44,595 bases of DNA from Acidobacteriaceae bacterium (GTDB taxonomy: Bacteria; Acidobacteriota; Terriglobia; Bryobacterales; Bryobacteraceae). This document shows, piece after piece, positions 14,823 through 26,669 of this stretch (position 1 is the first letter of the stretch; every line of letters starts with the position of its first letter). The stretch lies in assembly GCA_020247055.1 (NCBI GenBank), contig JADCJL010000155.1, forward strand, positions 1-44,595, in the 5' to 3' direction. The translations under genes were made by a program, and so were the position numbers. Below the pieces are notes generated by a model that saw nothing but the letters and a program-made list of their open reading frames with translations, had not been told where the DNA came from and searched no databases.

Positions 14823-15221
14823 ATGCCCTCTCCTGATTCCGCGCCCAACCGCAACACCCGCCAACGGCGGGCGATCCGCGATGCCTTCGTCACCGCCGAC
14901 CGGCCCTTGAACCCGAACGAGGTTCTCGAACTGGCCGCCGCCGGCCACGAAGGCATTGGCATCGCCACCGTCTACCGCAATATCAAAAACCTCGTCGAAG
15001 AGGGCTGGCTCACCACCGTCGAACTACCCGGCGAGTCGGCCCGCTACGAACTCGCCGGCAAGGCCCATCACCACCACTTTCACTGCAAACAATGCGGGAA
15101 GGTCTATGAGTTGAGCGGCTGCCTGTCCGGCTTTAAGGCGATGGCTCCCGAAGGCTTCGAAGTCACCGGGCACGAGGTGCTGCTGTACGGAGTTTGCAGG
15201 TCCTGCGGCGAAGCCCGCTAA
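14823..15221 (+). CDS. Fur-family transcriptional regulator (Zur/PerR-like)
   Basis: This 132-residue DNA-binding metalloregulator has a winged helix at residues about 10-80, with [11 protein letters not shown] and the recognition segment [17 protein letters not shown]. The dimer/metal domain begins with [16 protein letters not shown] and ends with GVCRSCGEA; the two CxxC pairs form the structural zinc site. The sequence does not decide between Zur, PerR and Fur. The neighbours (SmtB-type sensor and His-rich protein, gaps of 6 and 10 bp) favour Zur. Having a sensor of metal excess (SmtB) and a putative sensor of metal sufficiency in one operon is notable. Confidence 0.88.
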
Positions 15222-15252: not shown

Positions 15253-15915
15253 CTAGGGCTTCAACTGCCCCGCAAACTCCTTGCGCAACTTGGCCACCTT
15301 GGGTGCGGAGTTCACCACCACATACGGATGGTTCGGATTCCGCTTCACAAAGTCCTGGTGGTAATCCTCGGCCGGGTAGAAGGCCTTGAGCGGCGCGAGC
15401 TCCGTGACAATCCTGCCGCTGAACACCTTGGCCTGTTCGAGCTGGGCGATGTAAGCCGCCGCCACACGCCGCTCCTCTTCATTGCCATAGAAAATGGCGG
15501 AGCGGTACTGCGGACCATAGTCCGGCCCCTGCCGGTTCAGCTGCGTCGGGTCGTGGGCCACGGCGAAGAAGATCTGCAGGATCCGGCCGTAGGAGATCTT
15601 CGCCGGATCGTAGGTCACCTCGATCGACTCGGCGTGCCTGGTCCGGCCCGAGCCCACCATCTCGTAAGTCGCCGAAGCCAGGTCCCCGCCCGAATAGCCG
15701 GACACGACCTTCTCCACCCCGGCCACAGCCTCGAAAACCGCCTCCGTGCACCAGAAACACCCGCCGGCCAGCACTGCCTTCTGCCGGCCCTTAATTTTGG
15801 CTGGGTCCCCTTTGGCTGGGTAAATATCCTGCGCCGGCGCGGGCAGCGGCATGCGGGGCGCGGCGGAGCAACCAAGGCCCGCCAGCAGGGCAATCGTCAT
15901 CATCTGTCGAAACAT
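15253..15915 (-). CDS. msrA: Peptide-methionine (S)-S-oxide reductase, exported (MsrA)
   Basis: This 220-residue enzyme reduces the S-epimer of methionine sulfoxide in proteins. The catalytic motif [12 protein letters not shown] is at about residues 51-62 and is followed by GYSGG, the [10 protein letters not shown] segment and the C-terminal EDYHQDF, all typical. The N-terminus is a signal peptide ([15 protein letters not shown]); the Cys after LAGLG may be a lipobox, though imperfect. It is therefore probably a periplasmic or lipid-anchored MsrA. The gene follows msrB by 9 bp on the same strand. Together they repair both epimers of oxidised Met in the envelope or cytoplasm. Confidence 0.93.
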
Positions 15916-15924
15916 CCAAGCCTC

Positions 15925-16323
15925 CTATTCGCCGGCCGCCCGCGCCGCAAAGCGCAGCGCGACCGAATTCATGCAGTAACGCAGCCCGGTCGGCCGCGGC
16001 CCGTCGGGAAACACGTGCCCCAGGTGCGCCTCACACCGGGCGCAGACCACCTCCGTCCGGGTCAGGAATAGCGACCGGTCCACGTGCTCGCCCACACTCT
16101 CCGGCGCCGCCGGCTGATAGAAGCTCGGCCACCCCGTGCCGGAGTCGAACTTATGCCGCGAGTCGAACAGCGGCGCGTCGCAACACACGCAGCGGTAGAC
16201 CCCGTCGCCCTTATGGGCGTTGTATTCGCCGGTAAAAGCCCGCTCGGTGCCCTTGCAGCGGGTCACTTCGTACTGCAGCGGCGTCAACTGCCGCCGCCAT
16301 TCCTCTTCGGTCTTGGTGATCAT
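15925..16323 (-). CDS. msrB: Peptide-methionine (R)-S-oxide reductase (MsrB)
   Basis: This 132-residue enzyme reduces the R-epimer of methionine sulfoxide. It has the SelR fold with two zinc-binding CxxC pairs (YRCVCCD and [14 protein letters not shown]), [10 protein letters not shown], and the catalytic Cys within [12 protein letters not shown]. No signal peptide is evident, unlike its msrA neighbour, so the two may act in different compartments. Its start lies 1 bp beyond the stop of the upstream small gene (16325-16765), suggesting one transcript. Confidence 0.94.
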
Positions 16324-16765: not shown

Positions 16766-17080
16766 ATGGCTTTATCGTACTGCGCCGCCGTCCGCCGGGG
16801 CATGGACCCCGGCATCATCCGCAACCGCCGCAAGATCAACGCCGCCATCGAAAACGCCCGCCGCCTCCAGGCCTTGGGTTCGTTTCGCAGTTTCCTCGAT
16901 TCCCATGCTCCGCGCGACCGCGCCGCCTGGACCCGGCTGTTCCAACAGACCTTCGTCTTCACCGGCGGCGAGATCGTCAACCAATTCCTACTCAGCACCG
17001 GCTATCTGCCCGGCGCCCACGAGCCGGACTGCCCGGTCTACCACCCCATCAACGATTTAACAGCCGCACGCCAACGATGA
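16766..17080 (+). pseudogene. tag: 5'-truncated DNA-3-methyladenine glycosylase I (tag) C-terminal half
   Basis: This 104-residue frame matches only the C-terminal half of Tag: DPGIIRNRRKINAAIENAR, then QQTFVFTGGEIVNQFLLSTGY, then a terminal HEPDCPVY. Full-length Tag is about 185-190 residues. The missing N-terminal half carries the catalytic Glu, the aromatic base-binding residues and part of the zinc site, so the product cannot be an active glycosylase. Oddly, the frame has an ATG with a good AAGGAG site 6 bp upstream. That ATG lies back to back with the opposite ATG at 16765, so the truncation looks like a clean junction. The 3' end overlaps the convergent EamA gene by 32 bp. Confidence 0.7.
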
Positions 17081-17918
17081 CAACCGCGCCGCCGAGCAGC
17101 GTCGCCCCGCTCACCGCCTCACCCAGAAATACCGAACTCAAAATCACCCCGAACACCGGAACCAGGTTGATGAAGATCGACGCGCGACTCGGCCCGATCT
17201 GCCCGATGCCCTTGAGATAAAGCAGAAACGCCGCCGTCGTGCCGCCCCAACCGAGAAACGCCGCCGCCAGCCAAACCTTCGGGCTCCACGGCGCCGCCGG
17301 GGGCGGCTGCAGCGCGGCATAGGCCACCAGCGCCGCCGTCCCCAGCCACGTCGAGTAGGCCGTCGCCGCCACGGCGGGAATCTTCCCCGTCACCGTGCGG
17401 CCGAGCAGCGTGTAGATCACCCACGAGACCGCACAGCCGAGAATCCACAAATCCCCCGTATTCAGCCCCTGGGCAAATAGCCGTCCCGGCTCGCCTTGCG
17501 AAAGCACCAGCACCGCCCCGGACAAACTCACCAGCAGGCCGGTCACCTTGAGCGGCGTCACCTTCTCGCCCCACACCAGCGCCGAAAATAGAAACACGAA
17601 CATCGGCTGCATGGAAGCCACCATCGACGCCCGCCCCGCCGGCACCGTCTGCAGCCCGTTAAAGAAGCAGATGTTGTAGAAGAACACCCCGAACAGCCCC
17701 ATCGCCGCCAGCCGCCCGAACAGCCCGGCCGTCAGCGCCGGCCACGGCCGGTAGAACAGCAGCACGGCCAACAGCCCCAGCGACCCGAAGCCAAAGCGGC
17801 CCAGCGAGCCATGGACGGCCGGCACCCCTTCGGCCGCAATCAGCCGGCCGCAAAGCCAGGAGGTGCCCCAGAGCAGGGCGGTGAGAGTGAGTTGCCAGTA
17901 GGCTCGCGCGTTCGAGAT
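17049..17918 (-). CDS. EamA/DMT-superfamily transporter, start codon uncertain
   Basis: This is an inner-membrane transporter with about ten helices in two EamA repeats. Visible segments are GLFGVFFYNICFFNGLQTVPA, MVASMQPMFVFLFSALVWGEKV, AVSWVIYTLLGRTVTG and FINLVPVFGVILSSVFLGE. The first standard start codon is GTG 17825, giving 258 residues. The same frame continues upstream with a normal family N-terminus (AYWQLTLTALLWGTSW, then LCGRLIAAEG) for 31 more residues, up to an ATC at 17918 (ISNARAYW). No ATG, GTG or TTG is available there. With ATC the protein would have 289 residues, the usual length. Either ATC replaces a lost ATG, or translation starts at GTG 17825 without the first helix. 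Substrate is unknown (amino acids or metabolites in this family). Confidence 0.8.
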   Translation of the reverse strand: MSNARAYWQLTLTALLWGTSWLCGRLIAAEGVPAVHGSLGRFGFGSLGLLAVLLFYRPWPALTAGLFGRLAAMGLFGVFFYNICFFNGLQTVPAGRASMVASMQPMFVFLFSALVWGEKVTPLKVTGLLVSLSGAVLVLSQGEPGRLFAQGLNTGDLWILGCAVSWVIYTLLGRTVTGKIPAVAATAYSTWLGTAALVAYAALQPPPAAPWSPKVWLAAAFLGWGGTTAAFLLYLKGIGQIGPSRASIFINLVPVFGVILSSVFLGEAVSGATLLGGAVVIVGVRLLNR

Positions 17919-17931
17919 GCCCCTATTATCG

Positions 17932-17967
17932 CCTCTAAGGTGACCTCTAAGATGACCTCTAAGATGA
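17932..17967. repeat. Three tandem 12 bp repeats between divergent genes
   Basis: CCTCTAAGGTGA (17932-17943), CCTCTAAGATGA (17944-17955) and CCTCTAAGATGA (17956-17967) follow each other without gaps. They lie between the ATC/GTG starts of the EamA gene and the ATG of the CPBP gene at 17972. They occupy the place where both promoters or ribosome binding sites should be. Copy-number change would alter spacing but keep any reading frame (12 is a multiple of 3). Confidence 0.9.
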
Positions 17968-17971
17968 AGAG

Positions 17972-18550
17972 ATGCGGTTTCGAAGTGTTGGTATTGGCGT
18001 AGCGGCGGCGTGGATGGCGCTTTTGGTGGCCACGGAGGCCGCCCGGTGGGCCGTCCATCCTATTGAACAGCAGTTGGCGCTCTCCCGCGCACTGCTTCTG
18101 TTGTTCGCAACGGCCCTGTACTTCACCGGCGCCGGCGACTACGGCCTGCGCGCGCCGGGACGGCTGCCGTGGATCTGGATCGTGCCGGTCAGCCTCGCGC
18201 TCGGCGCCAGCGTTGGGGTCGCCGGGGCCATCCCGGGACCGTGGTGGCTCTGGGTGTTTATCGGCTTTGCCGACGAGGTCTTCGTCCGCGGCTGGCTGCA
18301 GGCGGCGCTGGCGCCCGTCCGCCAAAAGCTTGGCGACTGGAGCTTGCCCGTGCTGGCGAGCGGCCTGTTCGCCGGGTCGATGTACCTGACGCTGATGAAG
18401 CAGCGCGCCCCGGGGCCGGCCATCGTGGCGCTGGTCGTGGGTTCGACGGCGCTGGGGTTGGCCGCCGCCAGGCTGCGGGAGCAGTCCGGTAGCCTGGCGG
18501 GGCCGGTGGCGATGCACGCCCTGTTCGGGCTGGGCGTGGCGCTCGCTTAG
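17972..18550 (+). CDS. CPBP-family intramembrane protease-like protein, degenerate motifs
   Basis: This is a 192-residue protein with about five or six hydrophobic segments. The motif FADEVFVRGWLQAAL (about residues 98-112) corresponds to motif 1 of CPBP/CAAX proteases (EExxxR; here DExxxR). Motif 2 (FxxxH) would fall at LFAGSMYL, where the His is Met. Motif 3 (HxxxN/D) appears as HALFG, keeping the His but not the last residue. It therefore has the family fold, but only part of the catalytic set is present, and activity is doubtful. Its ATG follows immediately after three 12 bp repeats. Its end overlaps the convergent rhamnonate-dehydratase-like gene by 4 bp. Confidence 0.65.
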   Translation: MRFRSVGIGVAAAWMALLVATEAARWAVHPIEQQLALSRALLLLFATALYFTGAGDYGLRAPGRLPWIWIVPVSLALGASVGVAGAIPGPWWLWVFIGFADEVFVRGWLQAALAPVRQKLGDWSLPVLASGLFAGSMYLTLMKQRAPGPAIVALVVGSTALGLAAARLREQSGSLAGPVAMHALFGLGVALA

Positions 18551-19770
18551 CTGACGACGTAATCCCAGCCGAAGCCGGGACGATCGGGCGGACGCATGTA
18601 AATGCCTTCGGGTCCGCGGCTGATGTTGTAGGTCTCCTCGAACATCTGGTAGACCTCCTTCGGGCCGCCCGGGGGCGGCAGGAAGAGCTCCGACCACGGG
18701 GCGTTGATCTGCGAGAGCGTGAAGTGCGCGGCGCCGTTGAGCCCGCCGCCGTGCGGAATCACGGGGATGTCGTGCGCCGCGGCCAGCGCGCCGATGCGCC
18801 GCAGTTCGGTCATGCCGCCGCACCAGTTGATATCGGGCTGCCAGATCGAGGCGCCGTTGTGTTCGAGCAGGTAGCGGAAGCCGTAGCGGCCGTACTCGTG
18901 TTCACCCGTGGCGATGCGCGTCGATTTGATCTGCGCGTTCAACCGGCCGAAACCGGCGTAGTCGTGCGGCTGCAGCACCTCTTCCATCCAGTAGACGCGC
19001 TGGGATGCCATCATCTCGGCCATCTCAATCGTGTAGCGCTCGGTCCAGGCCATCCAGCAGTCGAGCATGATCTCGCCGTCCGGCCCCAGAGCTTTGCGGG
19101 CGCGTTCGACCAGCGCGAGGTTCGCCTTCATGCCGGCGCGGCCATCGGCCGGCCCGTGGGGAATGGCGAGCTTGAGCTTGGTGTAGCCGAACTCGACGTG
19201 CTGCTCAATGTCGTTGCCGGTGCAGTAGGTGGGAATGCGGTCCTTGGCCTCGCCGCCAAGCAGCTTATAAACCGGTACGTTCAGCGCTTTGCCGACGATG
19301 TCCCACAGGGCGTTGTCGACGCCGCTGATGGCGTTCATGGTCACGCCCATGCGGCCGTAGTTCATCGTCGAGCGCCAGCAGATATCCCAGTTGCGCTCGA
19401 TGTCGAACGGGTCGCGGCCCATCAGAAGCTTGGCGAGGTGATCGACGACCACCGGTCCGCCGCCAGGGCCGCCATTGCCGTAGCCGGTGATGCCCTTGTC
19501 GGTGGTGATCTCGACGGTGAAGCTCGGCACCTTGCCGGGGTTGGGGAAGAACAGTTCGCGGCGGGCCTTGAATTCGGGGTAGATCGACATGGGGTTGGCG
19601 ACCTCCACGTATTGGGTGCTCCAGGCCCCGGCGGCGGGCGTGTAGGCTGGAGGCTGCTTCCGCGGCTTCACGTTCACAAGGCGGATGCCCGTGATCTTCA
19701 GCTTCGATTTTTCCTGCGCCCAGCTGAGCGCGGGCAGGGTGATGAGAGAGAGTAGGTCTCGGCGTCGCAT
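18547..19770 (-). CDS. TAT-exported enolase-superfamily acid-sugar dehydratase (L-rhamnonate dehydratase-like)
   Basis: The protein has 407 residues from ATG 19770. The N-terminus MRRRDLLSLITLPALSWAQE is a twin-arginine-type signal, so the enzyme is probably periplasmic. The catalytic domain belongs to the mandelate racemase/enolase superfamily, closest in feel to L-rhamnonate dehydratases (HGPADGRAGM). Metal ligands can be placed at Asp in IMLDCWMAW, Glu in WMEEVLQPHD and Glu in TGEHEYGRYGF; the general-base His is in PHGGGLNG. It would remove water from an aldonic acid to give a 2-keto-3-deoxy acid. The gene follows phnX by 37 bp on the same strand, so it may be transcribed with the phosphonate genes. 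Export of such an enzyme is unusual outside this lineage. Substrate is unproven. Confidence 0.8.
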   Translation of the reverse strand: MRRRDLLSLITLPALSWAQEKSKLKITGIRLVNVKPRKQPPAYTPAAGAWSTQYVEVANPMSIYPEFKARRELFFPNPGKVPSFTVEITTDKGITGYGNGGPGGGPVVVDHLAKLLMGRDPFDIERNWDICWRSTMNYGRMGVTMNAISGVDNALWDIVGKALNVPVYKLLGGEAKDRIPTYCTGNDIEQHVEFGYTKLKLAIPHGPADGRAGMKANLALVERARKALGPDGEIMLDCWMAWTERYTIEMAEMMASQRVYWMEEVLQPHDYAGFGRLNAQIKSTRIATGEHEYGRYGFRYLLEHNGASIWQPDINWCGGMTELRRIGALAAAHDIPVIPHGGGLNGAAHFTLSQINAPWSELFLPPPGGPKEVYQMFEETYNISRGPEGIYMRPPDRPGFGWDYVVS

Positions 19771-19807
19771 AGGTGGTTGGGAAGTGGACGCTATGACTCT
19801 ACACAAT

Positions 19808-20614
19808 TCAGCGCGATTCCTCAATGCGGAGGGCGATGTCGTCGAGCAGCGGCAGGCAATCGGCGAGCCGCTCGGCCAGATAGTCGGGCCGGCCGCGCTG
19901 CAGCGTCTGTTCGGCTTCGAGCGTGCGCGCCGCGCGTTCGCCAAACGACAGCGCCTGATACTCGGCGGCCGACAGCCCCACCTCGTTGCCGCAGCTCGTC
20001 AGGCCAATCGTCCACATGCCCGCGTTGCGGCCTTCGGCGATATCGCTCGGGGTATCACCAATCTTCACGCAGTGCGCGAGCGGATAGACATCGAGCAGCG
20101 CGGCGTTGCGAAATACCATCCAGGGCGCGGGCCGGCCGCCGCCTACCTCGTCCGGCGTTACGCTCGCCTCGGGCGTGTAGCCTTCGCGGGCGGCGCGGCG
20201 CATGACGACATCGAGCATCTCGCGCGTATAGCCGGTGGTGGATCCGATGCGAATCCCGCGCCGGCGGCACTCGGCGAGGAACTCGACGACGCCCTCGATG
20301 ACGCCCGAGTGGTGTTCGAGGATGTTCAACTGCCGGGGGATGAAGCTTTCAAAAAGCGCCTGCACATCGCTTTCGGCCGGGGGCGCGCCGTGGCGGCTCG
20401 CCCAGGCCGCGGCGACGCGGGGCAGGGAACAGATGGCGCGAATCTGGTCTTTCTTGAGCAGACCCATCTGGTGGCGCGCCTCCTGCCGTTCGAGCGGCAC
20501 ACCGCGCAGCGCAAAGATCTCCTGCAGCACGATGACCGGCGCAAGGCAGCCGTGGTCTACGGTGGTGCCGGCCCAGTCGAGAATGACGGCGCGAATCGGG
20601 TAGCGAGTCTTCAT
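19808..20614 (-). CDS. phnX: Phosphonoacetaldehyde hydrolase (PhnX)
   Basis: This 268-residue HAD-superfamily enzyme splits the C-P bond of phosphonoacetaldehyde to acetaldehyde and phosphate. The nucleophile motif ILDWAGTTVDHG places D13; the family-specific Lys that forms a Schiff base with the substrate is in MGLLKKDQIRAI (K54). Other segments are GSTTGYTREMLD, and VKIGDTPSDIAEGRNAGMWT for Mg binding, followed by VGLTSCGNE-like sequence. ATG 20614 matches the family start. It lies downstream of the FAD oxidoreductase (gap about 58 bp) and upstream of the dehydratase. It is the anchor for naming this cluster. Its usual partner PhnW is not in the window. Confidence 0.95.
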   Translation of the reverse strand: MKTRYPIRAVILDWAGTTVDHGCLAPVIVLQEIFALRGVPLERQEARHQMGLLKKDQIRAICSLPRVAAAWASRHGAPPAESDVQALFESFIPRQLNILEHHSGVIEGVVEFLAECRRRGIRIGSTTGYTREMLDVVMRRAAREGYTPEASVTPDEVGGGRPAPWMVFRNAALLDVYPLAHCVKIGDTPSDIAEGRNAGMWTIGLTSCGNEVGLSAAEYQALSFGERAARTLEAEQTLQRGRPDYLAERLADCLPLLDDIALRIEESR

Positions 20615-20672
20615 AGAGCTTCCGCACGCCTCGTGCGAGCACCCATCACAGACAGAGTCGGATCCATCCGCC

Positions 20673-21800
20673 TCATCGGGCCAGCGTCTCCGCCGCCAGA
20701 CCAAACGACAGCGTCATGCCGCTGCCGCCCGGCGCCGTGATCACCTCCACGCCAGGGGCCGGCGTGAATCGGCAGTACGGCTGGTCCGGATGCTTGGCGT
20801 AGACGCCGTGCCAGCGCTCCACAATGGCCGGGTCCGGGAACCGGGCAAAGGTCGCCAAATAGCGCAACACGAGATCGTCCAGCGCGGGCTTATCGAAGAT
20901 GTCCACCGCCAGCCCATACTCGTGCGTATCACCCAGAGTGATTGCGCCGTCAGCCGTCTGCGAGACCAACACGTGGATACCCCACTCGTCGTACTCCGGC
21001 GTCTCGGCGGCGATGCGCGCCTTCAGGCGCGGCAGCGACGGGCACAGGCCGAAAGAGCTGTAAAAGCGCAGCGTCAGGCCCGCCGCCAGCGACGGCCCCA
21101 ACTGCCAACCGTTCGGCTGCGCCGCCGTGCGCAGCATCTGCAGCTTGCAACGGGTAATGCCGCTCGTGGCAAACAGACCGGGGTAGAGCGTCTGGAAGTC
21201 GTCGCCGCTGCAGACATAAACGGTATCGACCTCCCACGTCTCTCCGCCCGCCCGCACCCGGGGCAGTTCGATGCTGGTAACCGCGGTGTTGAACCGCAGC
21301 GTGACGCCGAACCGTTCGGCGAGAAAGCCGGGCAGCGTTGCGATGGTAACCCGGGGATCGACGACGACCTCGGTGGGCGACCACAGGCCGCCAAGCAGCC
21401 CCTCCGGCGCCACCGCCGGGCTGCGGGCGAGCACCTGCTCGGCGCTGAGCCAGGTGACGTCGAAGCCCTGCGCCGGGGCGAGCGCTGCGAACTCCTGCGC
21501 CACGGTTGCCTCGTCCTCGCGGTAGACCACGTGCAGCGAGCCGGTGGGGTAGTGCGGCAGCCGGGCGGCGGCGATGACGTCGAGCCAGTGCGCCCGGCTC
21601 GTCATCGCCATCTGATGCATCCGCCCGGCCGGCTGGCCCATCGGCCACACCATGCCAAAGTTCCGGATGGAGGCGCCCATGGCGCGCGGCGAGCGTTCAA
21701 ACAGCACCACTCGCCGGCCGGACTTGGCCGCGTGATAAGCATGGGCGAGGCCCAGGATGCCGCCGCCTACTACGGCAACGTCGGCGCGGGTTTGAGACAT
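20673..21800 (-). CDS. FAD-dependent amine oxidoreductase of phosphonate clusters (TIGR03364/PbfD-like)
   Basis: This 375-residue flavoprotein has the DAO fold. The N-terminus has the Rossmann motif ADVAVVGGGILGLAHAYHAA followed by VVLFERS; the C-terminus has the second FAD contact APGGSGMTLSFGLA. Segments such as GASIRNFGMVWPMGQP and VVYREDEATVAQEF fit the family of FAD oxidoreductases repeatedly found beside phnX. Members have been reported to oxidise 2-aminoethylphosphonate derivatives toward phosphonoacetaldehyde; I recall this and cannot check it here. ATG 21800 gives the family N-terminus and overlaps the end of the MFS gene by 31 bp. In the absence of PhnW it is the best candidate for producing the PhnX substrate. 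Confidence 0.85.
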   Translation of the reverse strand: MSQTRADVAVVGGGILGLAHAYHAAKSGRRVVLFERSPRAMGASIRNFGMVWPMGQPAGRMHQMAMTSRAHWLDVIAAARLPHYPTGSLHVVYREDEATVAQEFAALAPAQGFDVTWLSAEQVLARSPAVAPEGLLGGLWSPTEVVVDPRVTIATLPGFLAERFGVTLRFNTAVTSIELPRVRAGGETWEVDTVYVCSGDDFQTLYPGLFATSGITRCKLQMLRTAAQPNGWQLGPSLAAGLTLRFYSSFGLCPSLPRLKARIAAETPEYDEWGIHVLVSQTADGAITLGDTHEYGLAVDIFDKPALDDLVLRYLATFARFPDPAIVERWHGVYAKHPDQPYCRFTPAPGVEVITAPGGSGMTLSFGLAAETLAR

Positions 21801-23035
21801 GGTACGGGATCTACCTCCGGAACGCGATAGCTCCATTTCACCGTAAGCAGCAGTCCGCCCGCCACCGAAAGAACAAAAAAGAACCCGAACAGGGCGTCCC
21901 AGCCGAACCGCTGCACGACACCCGCCACCAGAAAGGGCGACAGAAACTGGCCGGTGGAGCCGGTGCCGTTGACGAAGCCCGACGCCGTGGCCGCGGTTTC
22001 GCGCGTTGACGAGTCCTGCACCGCGGCGCCGCCCAGCAGCGTATCCGGACCCAGGTTCAGCAGCCCGATCAGCGCGATAGCCGGCACAATGATCCAGGTC
22101 CCGGTGAGACCTGCCATCGTGGGGAGCAGACAGGCGCAGCCGAGGCCCATCATCGCCAGCGCGCCCACCGGAAACCGCCGCGCCTGAAACAGCTTGTCGG
22201 AGACATAGCCGCTCAACACCACCCCGGCGAAGCCGCCCAGCTCAAACACCGACGAACTGTAGCCCGCCTCGGCCGGGCTGAAACCGAGCCGCTCGGTGAG
22301 ATAAACCGGCAGCCAGAACAGGAAGGCGTAGCGCGTCATCTTCAGACAGAAATAGGCCCCGGCGATCACCCGGATGTTGCTGCTGCGGGCCACCTGAAGA
22401 AACTTGGCAAGGCTCTGCCGGGACTCGGCCCGGGTCTCGAACGCCACCGGACCGTTGCGCACGAGCACCGAAAAGCCCACGGCCAGCAGCATCAGCAGCG
22501 CGCCGGGCATCCACGCACCCCGCTGCCAGCCGGGGAAAAACAGCAGCGAGCTCGTGGCCGCGAACGTGCCGAAGGTGGTGGCGAGAAAGGCCCCCAGCGC
22601 GTAGTTGGTGCACCACCAGCCCATCACCACCCCGCGGTTGCGCGCCTCAAACCAGGCCGACATAATCTTCAGCAAGCCGGACCAGCCGCAGGCCTGCGCC
22701 ATGCCGTTGATCGCCTGCAGGGCGATGATCGAGGACGTGTCAGTGTAAAAGGCCATCGCCACGCTCGACGCCCCGGCCACCAGCATGCCGGCCGTCACCA
22801 CGCGCCGGGGGCCGAAGCGGTCGGACAGCGTGCCCATCACAAACTGGCTCAGCGAGTACATCAAGCTGTAGCCGAAGATCGCGGTGGCGAGTTGGTCCTT
22901 CGTAATGCCGGTATGCTGCTGCAACAGCGGCATCAGCACGCTGAAGTTCTTGCGGCAGAGATAAAAGCCGGCGTAGGCCAGCCAGGTGACGGCAAAGATG
23001 CGGACGCGCCAGGACTGGATTGACCCGTTTGTCAT
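21770..23035 (-). CDS. OPA-family MFS transporter (GlpT/UhpT-like), predicted phosphonate importer
   Basis: This 421-residue inner-membrane protein has about 12 helices. R28 in YLCRKNFSVLMP and R235 in CLKMTRYAFLFWLPVYL correspond to the two arginines (R45 and R269 in E. coli GlpT) that bind the phosphate group. The MFS motif DRFGPRR is present at 72-78. The organophosphate:phosphate antiporter family takes up phosphorylated compounds in exchange for phosphate. Together with phnX, phnZ and the FAD enzyme this suggests uptake of an aminophosphonate, with export of phosphate as a possible counter-ion. Codon overlap with the FAD gene (31 bp) supports co-expression. It is divergent from the hydrolase at 23076. 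The substrate is inferred from context only. Confidence 0.85.
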   Translation of the reverse strand: MTNGSIQSWRVRIFAVTWLAYAGFYLCRKNFSVLMPLLQQHTGITKDQLATAIFGYSLMYSLSQFVMGTLSDRFGPRRVVTAGMLVAGASSVAMAFYTDTSSIIALQAINGMAQACGWSGLLKIMSAWFEARNRGVVMGWWCTNYALGAFLATTFGTFAATSSLLFFPGWQRGAWMPGALLMLLAVGFSVLVRNGPVAFETRAESRQSLAKFLQVARSSNIRVIAGAYFCLKMTRYAFLFWLPVYLTERLGFSPAEAGYSSSVFELGGFAGVVLSGYVSDKLFQARRFPVGALAMMGLGCACLLPTMAGLTGTWIIVPAIALIGLLNLGPDTLLGGAAVQDSSTRETAATASGFVNGTGSTGQFLSPFLVAGVVQRFGWDALFGFFFVLSVAGGLLLTVKWSYRVPEVDPVPCLKPAPTLP

Positions 23036-23075
23036 CAGATCTTGACTCTATCGCCTCCACATTTCGAGATGATGA

Positions 23076-23933
23076 ATGAGCATGAAGAATCTGCTGCTCC
23101 TCCTCTGCCTAGCCGCCGCGGCCGGCGCTGCGCCGAAACACGTGGTGATCATCGGGGTCGACGGCCTGAGCGCCGAAGTGCTGCGCGAAGCCGAGGCGCC
23201 GAACCTGAAGCAGTTGATGGCGCGCGGCGCGTGGACGCTGCACGCCCGCGGCGTCCTGCCCACGGTGTCGAGCCCCAACTGGATGTCTATCCTCGCCGGC
23301 GCCGGGCCGGAGCAGCACGGCGTCGATTCAAACGAATGGGAGCGGTTTCAACAAGCGATTGCGCCCGTGTGCGCGGGGCCGGAGAAGATCTTCCCCACGT
23401 TGTTCAGCCAGTGGAAATCGCAGCGCCCCGCCGCGCACCTGGCCGTCATTCACGATTGGCCGGGCTTCGGGCGGCTGGTCGAAAAAAGCGCCACCGCCGC
23501 GACGCGGCACGTCAAAGGATCGCCGGCGGCGATGGCGGCGGCCATTGCCTATTGGAAGCAGCACAAGCCCGACCTGCTCTTCGTCCATCTCGACGACGTC
23601 GACCACGCCGGCCACGGCAAGGGTTGGGAATCGGCCGACTACCGGCGTGAGGTGGCCGTCGTGGACGGTCTCATTGGGGAGATGCTCGCCGTGCTGCCGG
23701 CCGCGCAGACGCTGGTGGTGATTGTGGCCGACCATGGCGGCACCGGGACCAAACACGGCAACCCGACCATGCGCGAGCTGGAGGTGCCGTGGATATTGGC
23801 CGGCCCCGGCGTCGCGCGGGGACGGGAGTTGACCGGGCCGGTCTATTCGCTCGATACGGCGCCCACCGTGCTGGCGCTCTTGGGGCTACGGCCTCACCCC
23901 TGCTGGACGGGACGCGCCGTGGCCGTCAAGTGA
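23076..23933 (+). CDS. Secreted alkaline-phosphatase-superfamily hydrolase (NPP/phosphodiesterase type)
   Basis: The product has 285 residues with a signal peptide (MSMKNLLLLLCLAAAAGAAP; the ATG at 23082 is an alternative start). The fold is alkaline-phosphatase/nucleotide pyrophosphatase-like. The first metal Asp is in VVIIGVDGLS (D29). The nucleophile is probably S65 in PTVSSPNWM, where NPP enzymes have Thr. Further metal ligands are in LDDVDHAGHG and VIVADHGGTGTKHG, and the last His is near the C-terminus. It probably hydrolyses a phospho- or phosphono-ester in the periplasm and so could free a phosphonate head group for import by the divergent MFS gene. It converges on phnZ and overlaps its 3' end by 40 bp. 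Confidence 0.85.
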   Translation: MSMKNLLLLLCLAAAAGAAPKHVVIIGVDGLSAEVLREAEAPNLKQLMARGAWTLHARGVLPTVSSPNWMSILAGAGPEQHGVDSNEWERFQQAIAPVCAGPEKIFPTLFSQWKSQRPAAHLAVIHDWPGFGRLVEKSATAATRHVKGSPAAMAAAIAYWKQHKPDLLFVHLDDVDHAGHGKGWESADYRREVAVVDGLIGEMLAVLPAAQTLVVIVADHGGTGTKHGNPTMRELEVPWILAGPGVARGRELTGPVYSLDTAPTVLALLGLRPHPCWTGRAVAVK

Positions 23934-24475
23934 CGGACAATCATGTCCCGGTAGGCTCCAATCGGGGTGACCGCCCGCCCCGGCTCCTTGGCCAATTCGT
24001 CCCAGTGGCGCAGGCGCAGGCAGTCTTTCAGCTCCGGCGCCGCGCCGAAAGCCGCGGCCTCCTCCGGCGCCATCGGGCCGCCCTGGTGCTTCAGGGTTTC
24101 CGTGCTGGCGGGCGAGAGGCGCTTGGCGTAGTTGGCGTTGGTGGTGACCAGATACCGCTTGGCGTCGACATGGCCGCGGACCAGGGTGCGGAGCCGGGGC
24201 GAAAAGCCCCGTTCGGCGAGCCACTCGGCGCCGAGGTCGTCGTGGTTGATCACGCCGACCTCCCCGTGCCGAATCGCCCGTTCGTCGCTGATGTTATGGC
24301 CGATGTCATGCAGCAGGGCGGCCAGAATCAGCTCCTCGTCGGCGTTGGCATCGCGCGCCGACTGCGCCGCCTGCAGCGCATGCGCCAACTGCGATACGGG
24401 TTCTCCGTAGTAGTCGGCGTTGGCGGAGGCGGCCAGCAGGGTGAGGATCTCGTCCGCGGTCTGCTCCGGCGTCAT
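23894..24475 (-). CDS. phnZ: PhnZ-like HD-domain mixed-valent diiron oxygenase
   Basis: The protein has 193 residues from ATG 24475. In characterised PhnZ, iron is bound by H34, H58, D59, H80, H104 and D161, with Y24 and E27 at the active site (from memory). Here the same residues appear at a constant offset of -2: Y22, E25 (YYGEPVSQLAH), H32, H56-D57 (ALLHDIGH), H78 (VINHDDLG), H102 (VRGHVDAKRY) and D159 (RHWDELAK). The match is strong enough to predict oxidative C-P cleavage of a 1-hydroxy-2-aminoethylphosphonate-type substrate to glycine or a related acid plus phosphate. The partner hydroxylase PhnY is not in the window. The gene starts 4 bp after ridA, so the two are coupled. Confidence 0.92.
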   Translation of the reverse strand: MTPEQTADEILTLLAASANADYYGEPVSQLAHALQAAQSARDANADEELILAALLHDIGHNISDERAIRHGEVGVINHDDLGAEWLAERGFSPRLRTLVRGHVDAKRYLVTTNANYAKRLSPASTETLKHQGGPMAPEEAAAFGAAPELKDCLRLRHWDELAKEPGRAVTPIGAYRDMIVRHLTATARPVQQG

Positions 24476-24479
24476 GGCT

Positions 24480-24866
24480 TCAGGCCAGGGGCTTGTACGC
24501 CACGCAGTCGATCTCGACGTGCATGGCGGGGTTGGGCATGACGGCCTGCACGGTGGTCCGGGCCGGCTTGGCATCGCCGAAAAACTCGCCGTAGACCTCG
24601 TTCATGGCGCTGAACTCGGCGACGTCCTTGAGAAACACCGAGCACTTCACCACATCGGCCAGCGTCGCGCCGGCCCCGGCGAGGATCTTCTGGATATTGG
24701 TGATGACGATACGGGTCTCGTGGCGGACATCCCCGATTTCGTACTGGCCGGTCTCGGTGTTAAACGGGCCCTGGCCGCTGACGTAGATAAAGTCACCGGC
24801 CCGAACCGCGTGAGAGTAGGGCCCGGCGGGCCGCGGCGCGCCGGGAATGTGGAAACGTTCGATCAT
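24480..24866 (-). CDS. RidA-family enamine/imine deaminase
   Basis: This 128-residue trimeric YjgF/YER057c/UK114 protein hydrolyses reactive imines made by PLP or flavin enzymes. The catalytic Arg is R103 in PARTTVQAV and the supporting Glu is E118 in HVEIDCVAY, with the typical IYVSGQGP and DVVKCSVFLKD segments. It should therefore be an active member. A good ribosome binding site GGAGAG lies 4 bases before the ATG. It is 12 bp downstream of the NYN gene and 4 bp upstream of phnZ. In a cluster with an FAD amine oxidoreductase, its likely job is hydrolysing the iminophosphonate product, though general housekeeping RidA activity is possible. Confidence 0.9.
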   Translation of the reverse strand: MIERFHIPGAPRPAGPYSHAVRAGDFIYVSGQGPFNTETGQYEIGDVRHETRIVITNIQKILAGAGATLADVVKCSVFLKDVAEFSAMNEVYGEFFGDAKPARTTVQAVMPNPAMHVEIDCVAYKPLA

Positions 24867-24878
24867 AGGGCTCTCCGA

Positions 24879-26261
24879 TTACTCCACCGGCTTGCGGGCG
24901 CGCGGGCGGCGCACGCTGGAGGTGGCGGTCTTTTTGGCGGCGGTGGCGCCGGTCCGTTTGCGTGAGGTTCCGGCGCCGCGCCGGCCTCCGGCGGGTTTGG
25001 CCTCCGCCGCGGGGGCCGTCGGTTCGGCCTCGGTCTCAGCGGCAGCCTCTTCGGTCGCAACCTCGGCCACGGTCTCGGCGACCCCGGCTCCGACCGCGAG
25101 TTCGCGTACCGGCTCCGGCTCCGGAGGCGGCGGGGCCAGCTCGGCGCCAAGGAACACCGTCATACCGCGCTGCTCATCCGGCTCCATGCGGACCATGAAG
25201 TTGTCCTGCGCGAAGTTCAGGAACTCGTTGAACTCCTGGAAGCCATACTTCTTCATGTCGAAGTCGGCATGGATCTTGCTCATCCAGCCCGCCACGGTTT
25301 CGGCGCTGGCGCCGTCTTCCATATCGAGCTTGTAGATGTCGAGCACCTGGCGGAGCAGCGGCAGGGCATCGTCCTTCTTATGGATCACCCCGCCGGTGGC
25401 GGCGGCGCCGCCCGAGAGGAGCTCGATCGTATAACGGCCCTCGGTGCCATGCAGTTGGATGAAGCCGGCAGCTTTAATGCGGTCGATGAACTCGGAAAAG
25501 GCACCGGCGCCGTAGGAGCGCTCGTTGAAACTGGGGTCGAGTTGCTTCATGGTGCTCTTGAGCAGACCAAGCTGCGGCTGGACGCCGCGCCGCTGCAGCA
25601 CGCTAAGAGCGCGTTCGACCAGCGGCATGGCCTGGGCTACTTCGAGCGGCTGCGGACGGCCACGCCGGTAACCGCCGCCTTGCTGCTGCGGCGGCTGCGC
25701 GGCGGGCGCGGGCGCTTCGGCCGCCGCGGCGCGCGGTGCCTGTTCCCGCGGCGGCGGCGGGGCGTACTTGCGCTCCGGGATCACCCGCATATCGTCCGTC
25801 AGCAGACTTTCGTAGCTGATGAACTCGTGGCAGTTCTGCTGCAGGATGTTCGAGGTGAAGGCCTTGCCACCGACAATATAAATGGTTTTCCCGTAGGCCT
25901 TCAGCTTGTTGACGAGCGGAATAAAGTCGCTATCGCCGCTGATGATCGCAAACGCATTCACGTTGCGGTGGGTGAAGGCCATCTCGAGCGCGTCGAGTGC
26001 CAGGTTGATATCCGCTCCGTTCTTGTCACCCCGCGGCGAGGGCAGGCGCTGCACCATCTGGACAGCGTTCTCCGCCATCTGCCGGACAGCCGGCTCCTGC
26101 CGGCTCCAGTTGGCATAGGCAAATTTGGCGACGATATCGCCGCGCTCCTTGAGCGCATCGAGAGGGAGCGACACGTCGAATTCGCGGCGCAACGTCGACT
26201 TCACGCCGATTTCGATGTTGTCATAGTCCACGAATACGGCGATATTTTGGCGTTCTTGCAT
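24879..26261 (-). CDS. NYN-domain RNase-like protein with two OST-HTH (LOTUS) domains
   Basis: The protein has 460 residues. The N-terminal NYN/PIN-like domain (about 5-150) has the acidic residues expected for metal-dependent RNA cleavage: VFVDYDN (D12, D14), GADINLALD (D84, D90) and ISGDSDF (D110, D112). A Pro/Ala/Gln-rich linker follows. Two winged-helix OST-HTH domains occupy about 210-295 (LLKSTMKQLDPSFNERSYG) and about 310-395 (MSKIHADFDMKKYGFQEF). The tail is Ala/Pro/Lys/Arg-rich. In eukaryotes this architecture is in RNA-binding proteins such as MARF1; bacterial members are thought to act on RNA. ATG 26261 fits the domain start; the frame is open further but poorly conserved-looking. 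It lies 12 bp upstream of ridA, so it may be co-transcribed with ridA-phnZ. Confidence 0.88.
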   Translation of the reverse strand: MQERQNIAVFVDYDNIEIGVKSTLRREFDVSLPLDALKERGDIVAKFAYANWSRQEPAVRQMAENAVQMVQRLPSPRGDKNGADINLALDALEMAFTHRNVNAFAIISGDSDFIPLVNKLKAYGKTIYIVGGKAFTSNILQQNCHEFISYESLLTDDMRVIPERKYAPPPPREQAPRAAAAEAPAPAAQPPQQQGGGYRRGRPQPLEVAQAMPLVERALSVLQRRGVQPQLGLLKSTMKQLDPSFNERSYGAGAFSEFIDRIKAAGFIQLHGTEGRYTIELLSGGAAATGGVIHKKDDALPLLRQVLDIYKLDMEDGASAETVAGWMSKIHADFDMKKYGFQEFNEFLNFAQDNFMVRMEPDEQRGMTVFLGAELAPPPPEPEPVRELAVGAGVAETVAEVATEEAAAETEAEPTAPAAEAKPAGGRRGAGTSRKRTGATAAKKTATSSVRRPRARKPVE

Positions 26262-26669
26262 GTAGTTCTTAATCCTTGGCGCGGTGCGGGGGGCCAGCCT
26301 TTGGCTCGCTCCCAAGGCGCCGCCTTTGAGTTGCTTGTTCCTGTTGGCAGCTTCCGCGGGGGGCAACGCCTCCACGTTTTCCGCTTTCCTGCTATCGGGG
26401 CCCGGCAGAATCGTCCCGGCTTCGCGGCAGCCGCCTGACGCCCGATTTGGGGTAGACCAGGGCTGCTCTAGCTGTCATCCGGCTCGACCGCTAGAGAGCA
26501 GTATATCGCTTGTGAGGAGTGGCGCGAGGCAGGGGGGAGGGAAGTGACCCCGCCCGAGCAAACCAACGTCCCGCCGAGGTCTGGTACCGGTGGTACGAAT
26601 CGTCGAGTTTCCCATTCAGTTTTTCCCCTTACAGTGGGTAAGGTCTCACGCTGAAAACTGGAGATTATC
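26262..26669. other. Intergenic region, no gene seen
   Basis: This is about 400 bases between the divergent NYN gene and the GT2 gene. Frames here are short and lack homology. The last about 70 bases before 26670 are AT-richer and may hold the GT2 promoter, with the ribosome binding site GGAG at about 26660. No RNA gene or repeat was recognised. Confidence 0.5.

Follow-up and report, generated by a model that had tools for sequence, protein, structure and literature searches.

Can natural aminophosphonates serve as a source of phosphate in a bacterium whose genome yields no convincing PhnW, and which enzymes would then cleave the C-P bond? This question is raised by a gene cluster on contig JADCJL010000155.1 (assembly GCA_020247055.1) of an Acidobacteriaceae bacterium assigned to the Bryobacteraceae. 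The whole stretch analyzed (44,595 nucleotides, forward strand) is referred to as the window; its source genome is a draft assembly of 6.56 Mb in 358 contigs. The cluster comprises genes for phosphonoacetaldehyde hydrolase (PhnX), a flavin adenine dinucleotide (FAD)-dependent amine oxidase of the PbfD type, a PhnZ-like diiron oxygenase and an OPA-family carrier of the major facilitator superfamily (MFS). It is genuine and conserved, known parts account for it well, and it quite likely represents a PhnW-less, 'a la carte' kind of aminophosphonate utilisation, in which a PbfD-PhnX route is combined with a PhnZ branch. With this gene set the acidobacterium probably imports natural aminophosphonates and frees phosphate from them by two different enzymes.

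Protein families were assigned by profile scans against NCBIfam and PF models, with the curated cut-offs quoted beside the scores, and ten proteins of the window (spanning positions 17049-26264) were scanned. The open reading frames and the scans agree with the places given to these genes by an initial annotation, which had been made from the letters of the window alone. PhnX is securely predicted by family: it exceeds the TIGR01422 cut-off by 100 bits and matches the solved chains 2iof (E-value 2.2e-72) and 1rql (1.5e-71). D13 and K54, which we take to be the nucleophilic aspartate of HAD enzymes and the Schiff-base lysine, respectively, are present in 57 of 57 aligned sequences; K54 aligns with the arginine position of chain 2ioh. 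Membership of the FAD enzyme in the TIGR03364 family is an equally secure prediction, with a score 138 bits above the cut-off and 12 aligned homologues sharing 55-93% identity. An in-frame ATG at position 21800, from which the relatives were aligned, is perhaps its true start. In searches of the whole genome neither PhnW (best score 124.9, cut-off 400.8) nor PhnA or PbfA was found over cut-off, and PhnJ gave no match.

What such an oxidase may do is indicated by its characterized relatives. According to the available text of the study describing them (PMC10590968), PbfD1 of Acinetobacter baumannii is placed in TIGR03364, while PbfD2 of Mariniblastus fucicola, from whose genome phnW is apparently missing, oxidises both 2-aminoethylphosphonate (AEP) and N-methyl-AEP to phosphonoacetaldehyde, reacting with AEP fourfold slower than with N-methyl-AEP. 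It is highly improbable that the real substrates of the window enzyme are glyphosate or related N-substituted amino acids. An in silico study of the Achromobacter enzyme, in its available text, named glycine derivatives as possible ligands (PMC11203657), but this is a prediction alone, whereas the PbfD enzymes that were assayed take N-methyl-AEP and AEP (PMC10590968).

The second C-P cleaving enzyme is named PhnZ-like because it misses the curated TIGR03276 cut-off. Its best solved matches are the PhnZ structures 4mlm (153.7 bits over 177 residues), 4n71 and 4n6w. In the available text of PMC8177086 a diiron motif (H...HD...H...H...D) and a YxxE loop are given for such oxygenases, and both are found in the window protein, as judged from the 4mlm alignment and from column counts in 44 rows: Y22, E25, H32, H56, D57, H60, H78, H102 and D159 are kept in 42-44 of the 44 rows; apart from gaps, the one deviation is an isoleucine at H60. 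Since iron ligands and loop are kept, the protein is predicted to be an oxygenase, not a phosphohydrolase. Its substrate could be some other 1-hydroxyphosphonate (hydroxymethylphosphonate or N-methylated HAEP) instead of (R)-1-hydroxy-AEP (HAEP), as suggested by the differing substrates of its relatives GmPhnZ and TmpB (PMC10574752, available text), by the missed cut-off and by the presence of TIGR03276 proteins in C-P lyase operons. We regard this as unlikely, however, given that among solved structures PhnZ, an HAEP enzyme, matches best, with TmpB (6npa) reaching 99.7 bits, and that in NCBIfam the protein scores 200.7 with Phn-HD, against 134.1 with TmpB and 115.1 with hydroxymethylphosphonate dioxygenase (both of these models having cut-offs of 300). 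The C-P lyase operons with a TIGR03276 oxygenase inside or beside them were seen on a Nostoc and a Variovorax plasmid (L250, 635-10373; L249, 1-6540), and such copies mark the enzyme as an add-on to several phosphonate systems; a plasmid search with PhnZ returned 26 records, every one below 60% identity.

The window enzyme resembles the PhnZ of the PhnY*-PhnZ pathway in having all iron ligands and the YxxE loop, but the PhnY* partner is absent from the cluster. PhnY* belongs to the PhyH family, and four PhyH-family matches over cut-off exist in the genome, so PhnZ might work in series with a PhnY*-type dioxygenase encoded elsewhere, AEP then being consumed by two competing routes, PbfD-PhnX and PhnY*-PhnZ. 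None of the four, however, lies on the window's contig, and the two strongest, which are the two that were scanned, match no NCBIfam phosphonate model, which makes this arrangement rather improbable. Because HAEP is itself a natural compound, a PhnZ branch fed by import would not need PhnY*.

As regards uptake, the carrier scores 204.2 bits with TIGR00881 (below the cut-off of 407.75), and its best solved match is GlpT (1pw4, 116.3 bits). R28 is present in 30 of 32 aligned rows (the other two being gaps) and R235 in all 32; presumably these correspond to R45 and R269 of GlpT. No ABC (ATP-binding cassette) phosphonate transporter was found among the ten scanned proteins, the genome not having been searched for one. 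AepP of Pseudomonas putida, a GlpT-like AEP permease, has also been reported in an acidobacterium beside phnWAY or phnWX (PMC8316502, available text). Like AepP of strain BIRD-1, the carrier is thus a GlpT-like MFS protein co-localised with aminophosphonate enzymes, and an acidobacterium is included among the AepP cases (PMC8316502, PMC9311074, available texts); the likeness is one of description.

The conservation of the cluster was assessed in a panel of 61 genomes: the window's own, 18 of the same genus, 18 of the same family and 24 more distant ones. PbfD was over cut-off in 13 and PhnX in 17 genomes, and PhnZ reached at least 113 bits in 14 (including a broken copy in genome G011). All 13 PbfD genomes also have PhnX over cut-off and PhnZ at this score, in 12 of them (the window and eleven others) within a single cluster. 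The joint occurrence of the three genes is more than chance. The carrier, the PbfD-type oxidase, PhnX and PhnZ are found together in 12 of the 61 genomes (the window's among them) and follow two gene orders; 16 loci beyond the window were read for this. A search for the same gene order had been proposed in the initial annotation; the order RidA-PhnZ-hydrolase-OPA-PbfD-PhnX recurs in 9 genomes counting the window, and from the NYN gene to PhnX it is kept in eight congeners. The second order, OPA-PbfD-PhnX-PhnZ in one row, occurs in G005 and G010. In G004 the same OPA-PbfD-PhnX order is cut by a contig end inside phnX and PhnZ starts another contig. A 5.3-kb contig of G035 carries PhnZ-PbfD-PhnX, and no carrier was seen there.

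PhnX without PbfD was found in four of the 16 loci, and these illustrate how parts are exchanged. G032 (L091, 6919-11769) has OPA-PhnW-PhnX-PbfA, a classical pathway equipped with a carrier of this type, and here PhnW occupies the place that PbfD has in the window. G037 carries OPA-PhnX-PbfA-hydrolase. In G014 (L089, 6003-9758), where PbfD was not found over cut-off, an MFS gene in two frames is accompanied by an alcohol dehydrogenase of the TIGR03366 model ('phosphonate catabolism associated'; 395.9 bits, cut-off 328.1), which immediately precedes PhnX and PhnZ; this dehydrogenase might feed PhnX from 2-hydroxyethylphosphonate. In G021 PhnX stands alone, with no other core gene detected nearby. 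PbfA was over cut-off in three of the 61 genomes (G032, G037 and, with internal stops, G025), none of which has a PhnZ match.

Two peculiarities of individual loci were also observed. In G011 both phnZ and the carrier gene fall into two frames, and one TAG lies inside the match to the hydrolase (L085, 10571-11150, 8269-9490 and 9537-10343), reflecting either broken genes or assembly errors. In G004, G010 and G014 a 329-aa frame (L125, 4812-5798; L126, 5000-5986; L127, 5487-6473; all on the minus strand) occupies the position between RidA and the hydrolase. Its N-terminus is isochorismatase-like and is joined to a C-terminus that resembles PhnZ but lacks the HD motif (46.8 bits with TIGR03276 for L125, the sole one scanned); a piece matching it is present in G005. 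This frame may be a relic of PhnZ at the site or a reused domain.

A wider view was provided by an alignment scan with PbfD over 84,980 species (one genome per species), which yielded 235 relatives; the best 80 were retained with flanks of up to 8 kb. Of these 80 loci, 12 come from relatives already in the panel, and in 31 the flank on one or both sides is shorter than 3 kb. Among the best 80 of 235, PhnX was found in 50 loci (in 47 on the same strand and within 500 bases of PbfD), PhnZ in 39, both in 32, an OPA homologue in 27, a TIGR03366-like dehydrogenase in 13, PbfA in 4 and PhnW in none. PbfA and PhnZ never occurred together, none of the 4 PbfA loci having PhnZ. Judged by record titles, the hosts include planctomycetes, Gemmatimonadetes, Saprospiraceae and cyanobacteria, and 10 of the 13 loci with the dehydrogenase, all 10 of them planctomycetal, also have PhnX and PhnZ. 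PbfD-PhnX loci are present in named isolates too, among them Silvibacterium bohemicum (L179, where PbfA occurs as well) and Acidicapsa dinghuensis (L147).

Several points weigh against the proposed combination of a PbfD-PhnX route with a PhnZ branch. The panel counts span related, non-independent genomes, several of them incomplete, and the choice of the best 80 of 235 relatives favours the window's own kind; 17 of these 80 have no PhnX, PhnZ, OPA, PbfA, PhnW or TIGR03366-type dehydrogenase in the available stretch. PbfD1 and PbfD2 share about 30% identity and AEP turnover is stressed for PbfD2 in the available text of PMC10590968; the window enzyme may be nearer to either of the two. The TIGR03276 cut-off is passed by PhnZ in none of the 61 genomes. 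OPA homologues beyond the searched congeners are often only 27-36% identical, so that recruitment of the carrier may have happened on several occasions. Finally, the substrates of these proteins, as well as transport direction and division of labour, are predictions drawn from families, catalytic residues and linkage, which can be read from the sequence.

With this in mind, the following course is proposed. The OPA carrier would bring in AEP, N-methyl-AEP and probably (R)-HAEP, perhaps against phosphate. Replacing PhnW, the PbfD-type enzyme would use FAD and O2 to convert AEP or N-methyl-AEP to phosphonoacetaldehyde, with ammonia or methylamine and H2O2 as further products, and PhnX (whose role is secure by family) would cleave phosphonoacetaldehyde via a lysine Schiff base to acetaldehyde and phosphate. 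Imported (R)-HAEP would likely be cleaved by the PhnZ-like diiron oxygenase to glycine and phosphate, the enzyme filling the place that PbfA has in other clusters. The secreted hydrolase encoded at the site may release esterified aminophosphonates, and RidA and the enolase-superfamily protein are bystanders. Both the presence of two C-P cleaving enzymes of different chemistry and the sequence of MFS-type import, flavin oxidation and PhnX cleavage with PhnZ as a second branch had been proposed in the initial annotation; they fit the published enzymology of these families (PMC10590968, PMC8154272, PMC8316502, available texts) and the conserved linkage.

The layout of the locus is summarized in Table 1. 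The hydrolase gene is located between phnZ and the carrier gene; it overlaps the 3' end of phnZ over 40 bases, and its start codon lies 40 bases from that of the carrier. The core has a G+C content of 67.3% (63.6% for the window), a composition not telling on horizontal import. Further genes were named by eye from their translations: methionine sulfoxide reductases A and B (15253-15915 and 15925-16323, both on the minus strand) and a Fur-like regulator (14823-15221, plus strand).

Table 1. Genes of the aminophosphonate cluster and its flanks in the window, from high to low coordinates (the direction of transcription on the minus strand).
Gene or product	Position	Strand	Family evidence or remark
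NYN gene	24879-26264	-	first in the direction of transcription, followed by RidA
RidA-family protein	24480-24866	-	TIGR00004 119.7 bits (cut-off 106.25)
phnZ-like, HD-domain mixed-valent diiron oxygenase	23894-24475	-	TIGR03276 200.7 bits (cut-off 214.6 missed)
secreted PF01663 hydrolase (nucleotide pyrophosphatase/phosphodiesterase type)	23076-23933	+	113.9 bits
OPA-family MFS carrier, putative AepP-like aminophosphonate permease	21770-23035	-	MFS_1 197.3 bits
pbfD-type FAD amine oxidase	20673-21836	-	TIGR03364 423.3 bits (cut-off 285.1)
phnX, phosphonoacetaldehyde hydrolase	19808-20614	-	TIGR01422 320.3 bits (cut-off 220)
enolase-superfamily protein	18547 to ~19770	-	below every NCBIfam cut-off; not mentioned in the initial annotation

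Do the flanking genes belong to the pathway? In a reading near that of the initial annotation, everything from RidA to the enolase-superfamily gene would form a single catabolic unit, in which RidA disposes of the imine arising from the PbfD reaction and the hydrolase sets substrate free outside the cell. RidA and PhnZ are indeed on the same strand, 4 bases apart, the order from RidA to PhnX is that kept in the 9 genomes, and some further PbfD loci also contain the hydrolase. However, in all six congeners without detected PbfD, PhnX and PhnZ (G002, G003, G007, G008, G013 and G018, of which G008 is 62% and G002 83% complete) RidA adjoins the NYN gene, and among the best 80 of 235 PbfD loci it was found (threshold 50 bits) in only 8, each of which shows the gene order of the window. 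The hydrolase and the enolase-superfamily gene persist there as well: the hydrolase lies just past RidA in G002, G003 and G008 and away from the RidA site, adjoining the enolase-superfamily gene, in G007, G013 and G018, and the latter gene is near or next to the hydrolase in G002, G003, G007, G013 and G018. A single system of this extent is improbable, being already contradicted for RidA, whose membership in the cluster, as first claimed, does not stand. From these neighbourhoods RidA and the enolase-superfamily gene appear as residents of the site, and both RidA as imine deaminase of the pathway and the enolase-superfamily protein as a cluster member were rejected. After RidA, at the place of the window's phnZ, an isochorismatase-like frame (a label resting on weak matches of the G003 frame) is present in G003, G007 and G013, and two pieces in G002; in G002 the gap between hydrolase and enolase-superfamily gene contains, by eye, a serine hydrolase frame in place of carrier, PbfD and PhnX.

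The case of the hydrolase is different, and it was not written off as a plain bystander because it recurs with PbfD elsewhere. Its N-terminus resembles a signal peptide by eye, and all 19 of the 19 genomes in the genus encode it (identity of 60% or more), whether they carry the phosphonate genes or not; two further copies, in G036 and G028, are flanked by no phosphonate gene in the 1.5 kb or less available on each side. Among the best 80 of 235 PbfD loci, 72 do not have the window's gene order, and in 6 of these a hydrolase lies within 8 kb of PbfD: divergent from it, by less than 60 bases or overlapping, in L154, L159, L172 (a contig-end fragment) and L182, after PhnX in L174, and at 7.3 kb in L189. 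PhnX and PhnZ were not found in L159, L172 and L182, the sequence of the last two ending shortly behind PbfD. In G037 the hydrolase stands beside PbfA, next to PhnX. The initial annotation made the secreted hydrolase the first step of the pathway; its recurrence near PbfD, and in G037 beside PbfA and PhnX, speaks for a link, whereas its presence throughout the genus regardless of phosphonate genes speaks against one. A PhnA-like role was rejected (TIGR02335, 34.2 bits against a cut-off of 407.55). Tentatively, and with little confidence, this small PF01663 protein may be a dedicated aminophosphonate-ester hydrolase that acts outside the cytoplasm on phosphonate monoesters of glycans or lipids and liberates their AEP-type headgroups. 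Phosphonate monoesters chemically resemble the phosphodiesters cleaved by its superfamily, and the four tight divergent pairs with PbfD beyond the searched congeners, together with the G037 site, may be signs of it.

The nearest published cluster is the phosphonatase cluster of Achromobacter insolitus Kg 19 and A. aegrifaciens Kg 16, described in 2024 (PMC11203657). In the available text it likewise comprises PhnX, a TIGR03364 enzyme (HpnW) and a TIGR03276 oxygenase (PhnHD), with phnW outside, but uptake is by the ABC system PhnSTU and a LysR regulator is present, whereas the window has an OPA-type MFS carrier and no regulator was noticed. Moreover, phnW is located elsewhere in the Achromobacter genomes, whereas none was over cut-off in the window's genome, and a similar cluster is described in an Ochrobactrum anthropi strain without any phnW homologue. 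The roles of HpnW and PhnHD were left open by those authors, HAEP being named as a likely substrate of PhnHD. The initial judgement that the combination is little described therefore needs correction, as PhnX with a TIGR03364 oxidase and a TIGR03276 oxygenase, phnW lying outside the operon, is on record.

Other parts are also already in print: PbfD with PhnX and without PhnW (2023), PhnZ beside phnWX or phnWAY (2021) and AepP in an acidobacterium (2021). In M. fucicola, too, an FAD oxidase (PbfD2) replaces PhnW and feeds PhnX, but PhnZ appears in the main text only in the introduction and references (PMC10590968, available text). In the survey of phnWX and phnWAY clusters (PMC8154272, available text), PhnZ was found in 15 of 1186 and 24 of 75 clusters, respectively, never with PbfA, a distribution that suggested to its authors that (R)-HAEP has to be processed separately. 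The surveyed clusters and the window thus share PhnZ as an outlet for (R)-HAEP beside a hydrolytic AEP pathway, and the mutual exclusion of PbfA and PhnZ, but in the former phosphonoacetaldehyde comes from PhnW; the PhnW-less clusters lie outside the cluster types of the survey, yet follow the same PbfA/PhnZ rule. For the combination with an OPA-type carrier in Acidobacteriota, no report was found in the main texts of the open-licence papers searched.

What makes the locus interesting is that modules are exchanged within a single family and that the secreted hydrolase recurs. It adds a genus of Acidobacteriota, known here through metagenome assemblies, to the range of a PhnW-less, oxygen-dependent pathway that has PhnZ as a side branch, and the alternation of PhnW or PbfD, and of PbfA or PhnZ, inside a single family indicates that such clusters are built from interchangeable parts. 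If the suggested role of the hydrolase is true, it would open a bound phosphonate pool to the PhnW-less clusters of Acidobacteriota. Genomes of this kind would escape surveys whose markers are phnW, phnY* or ABC transporters.

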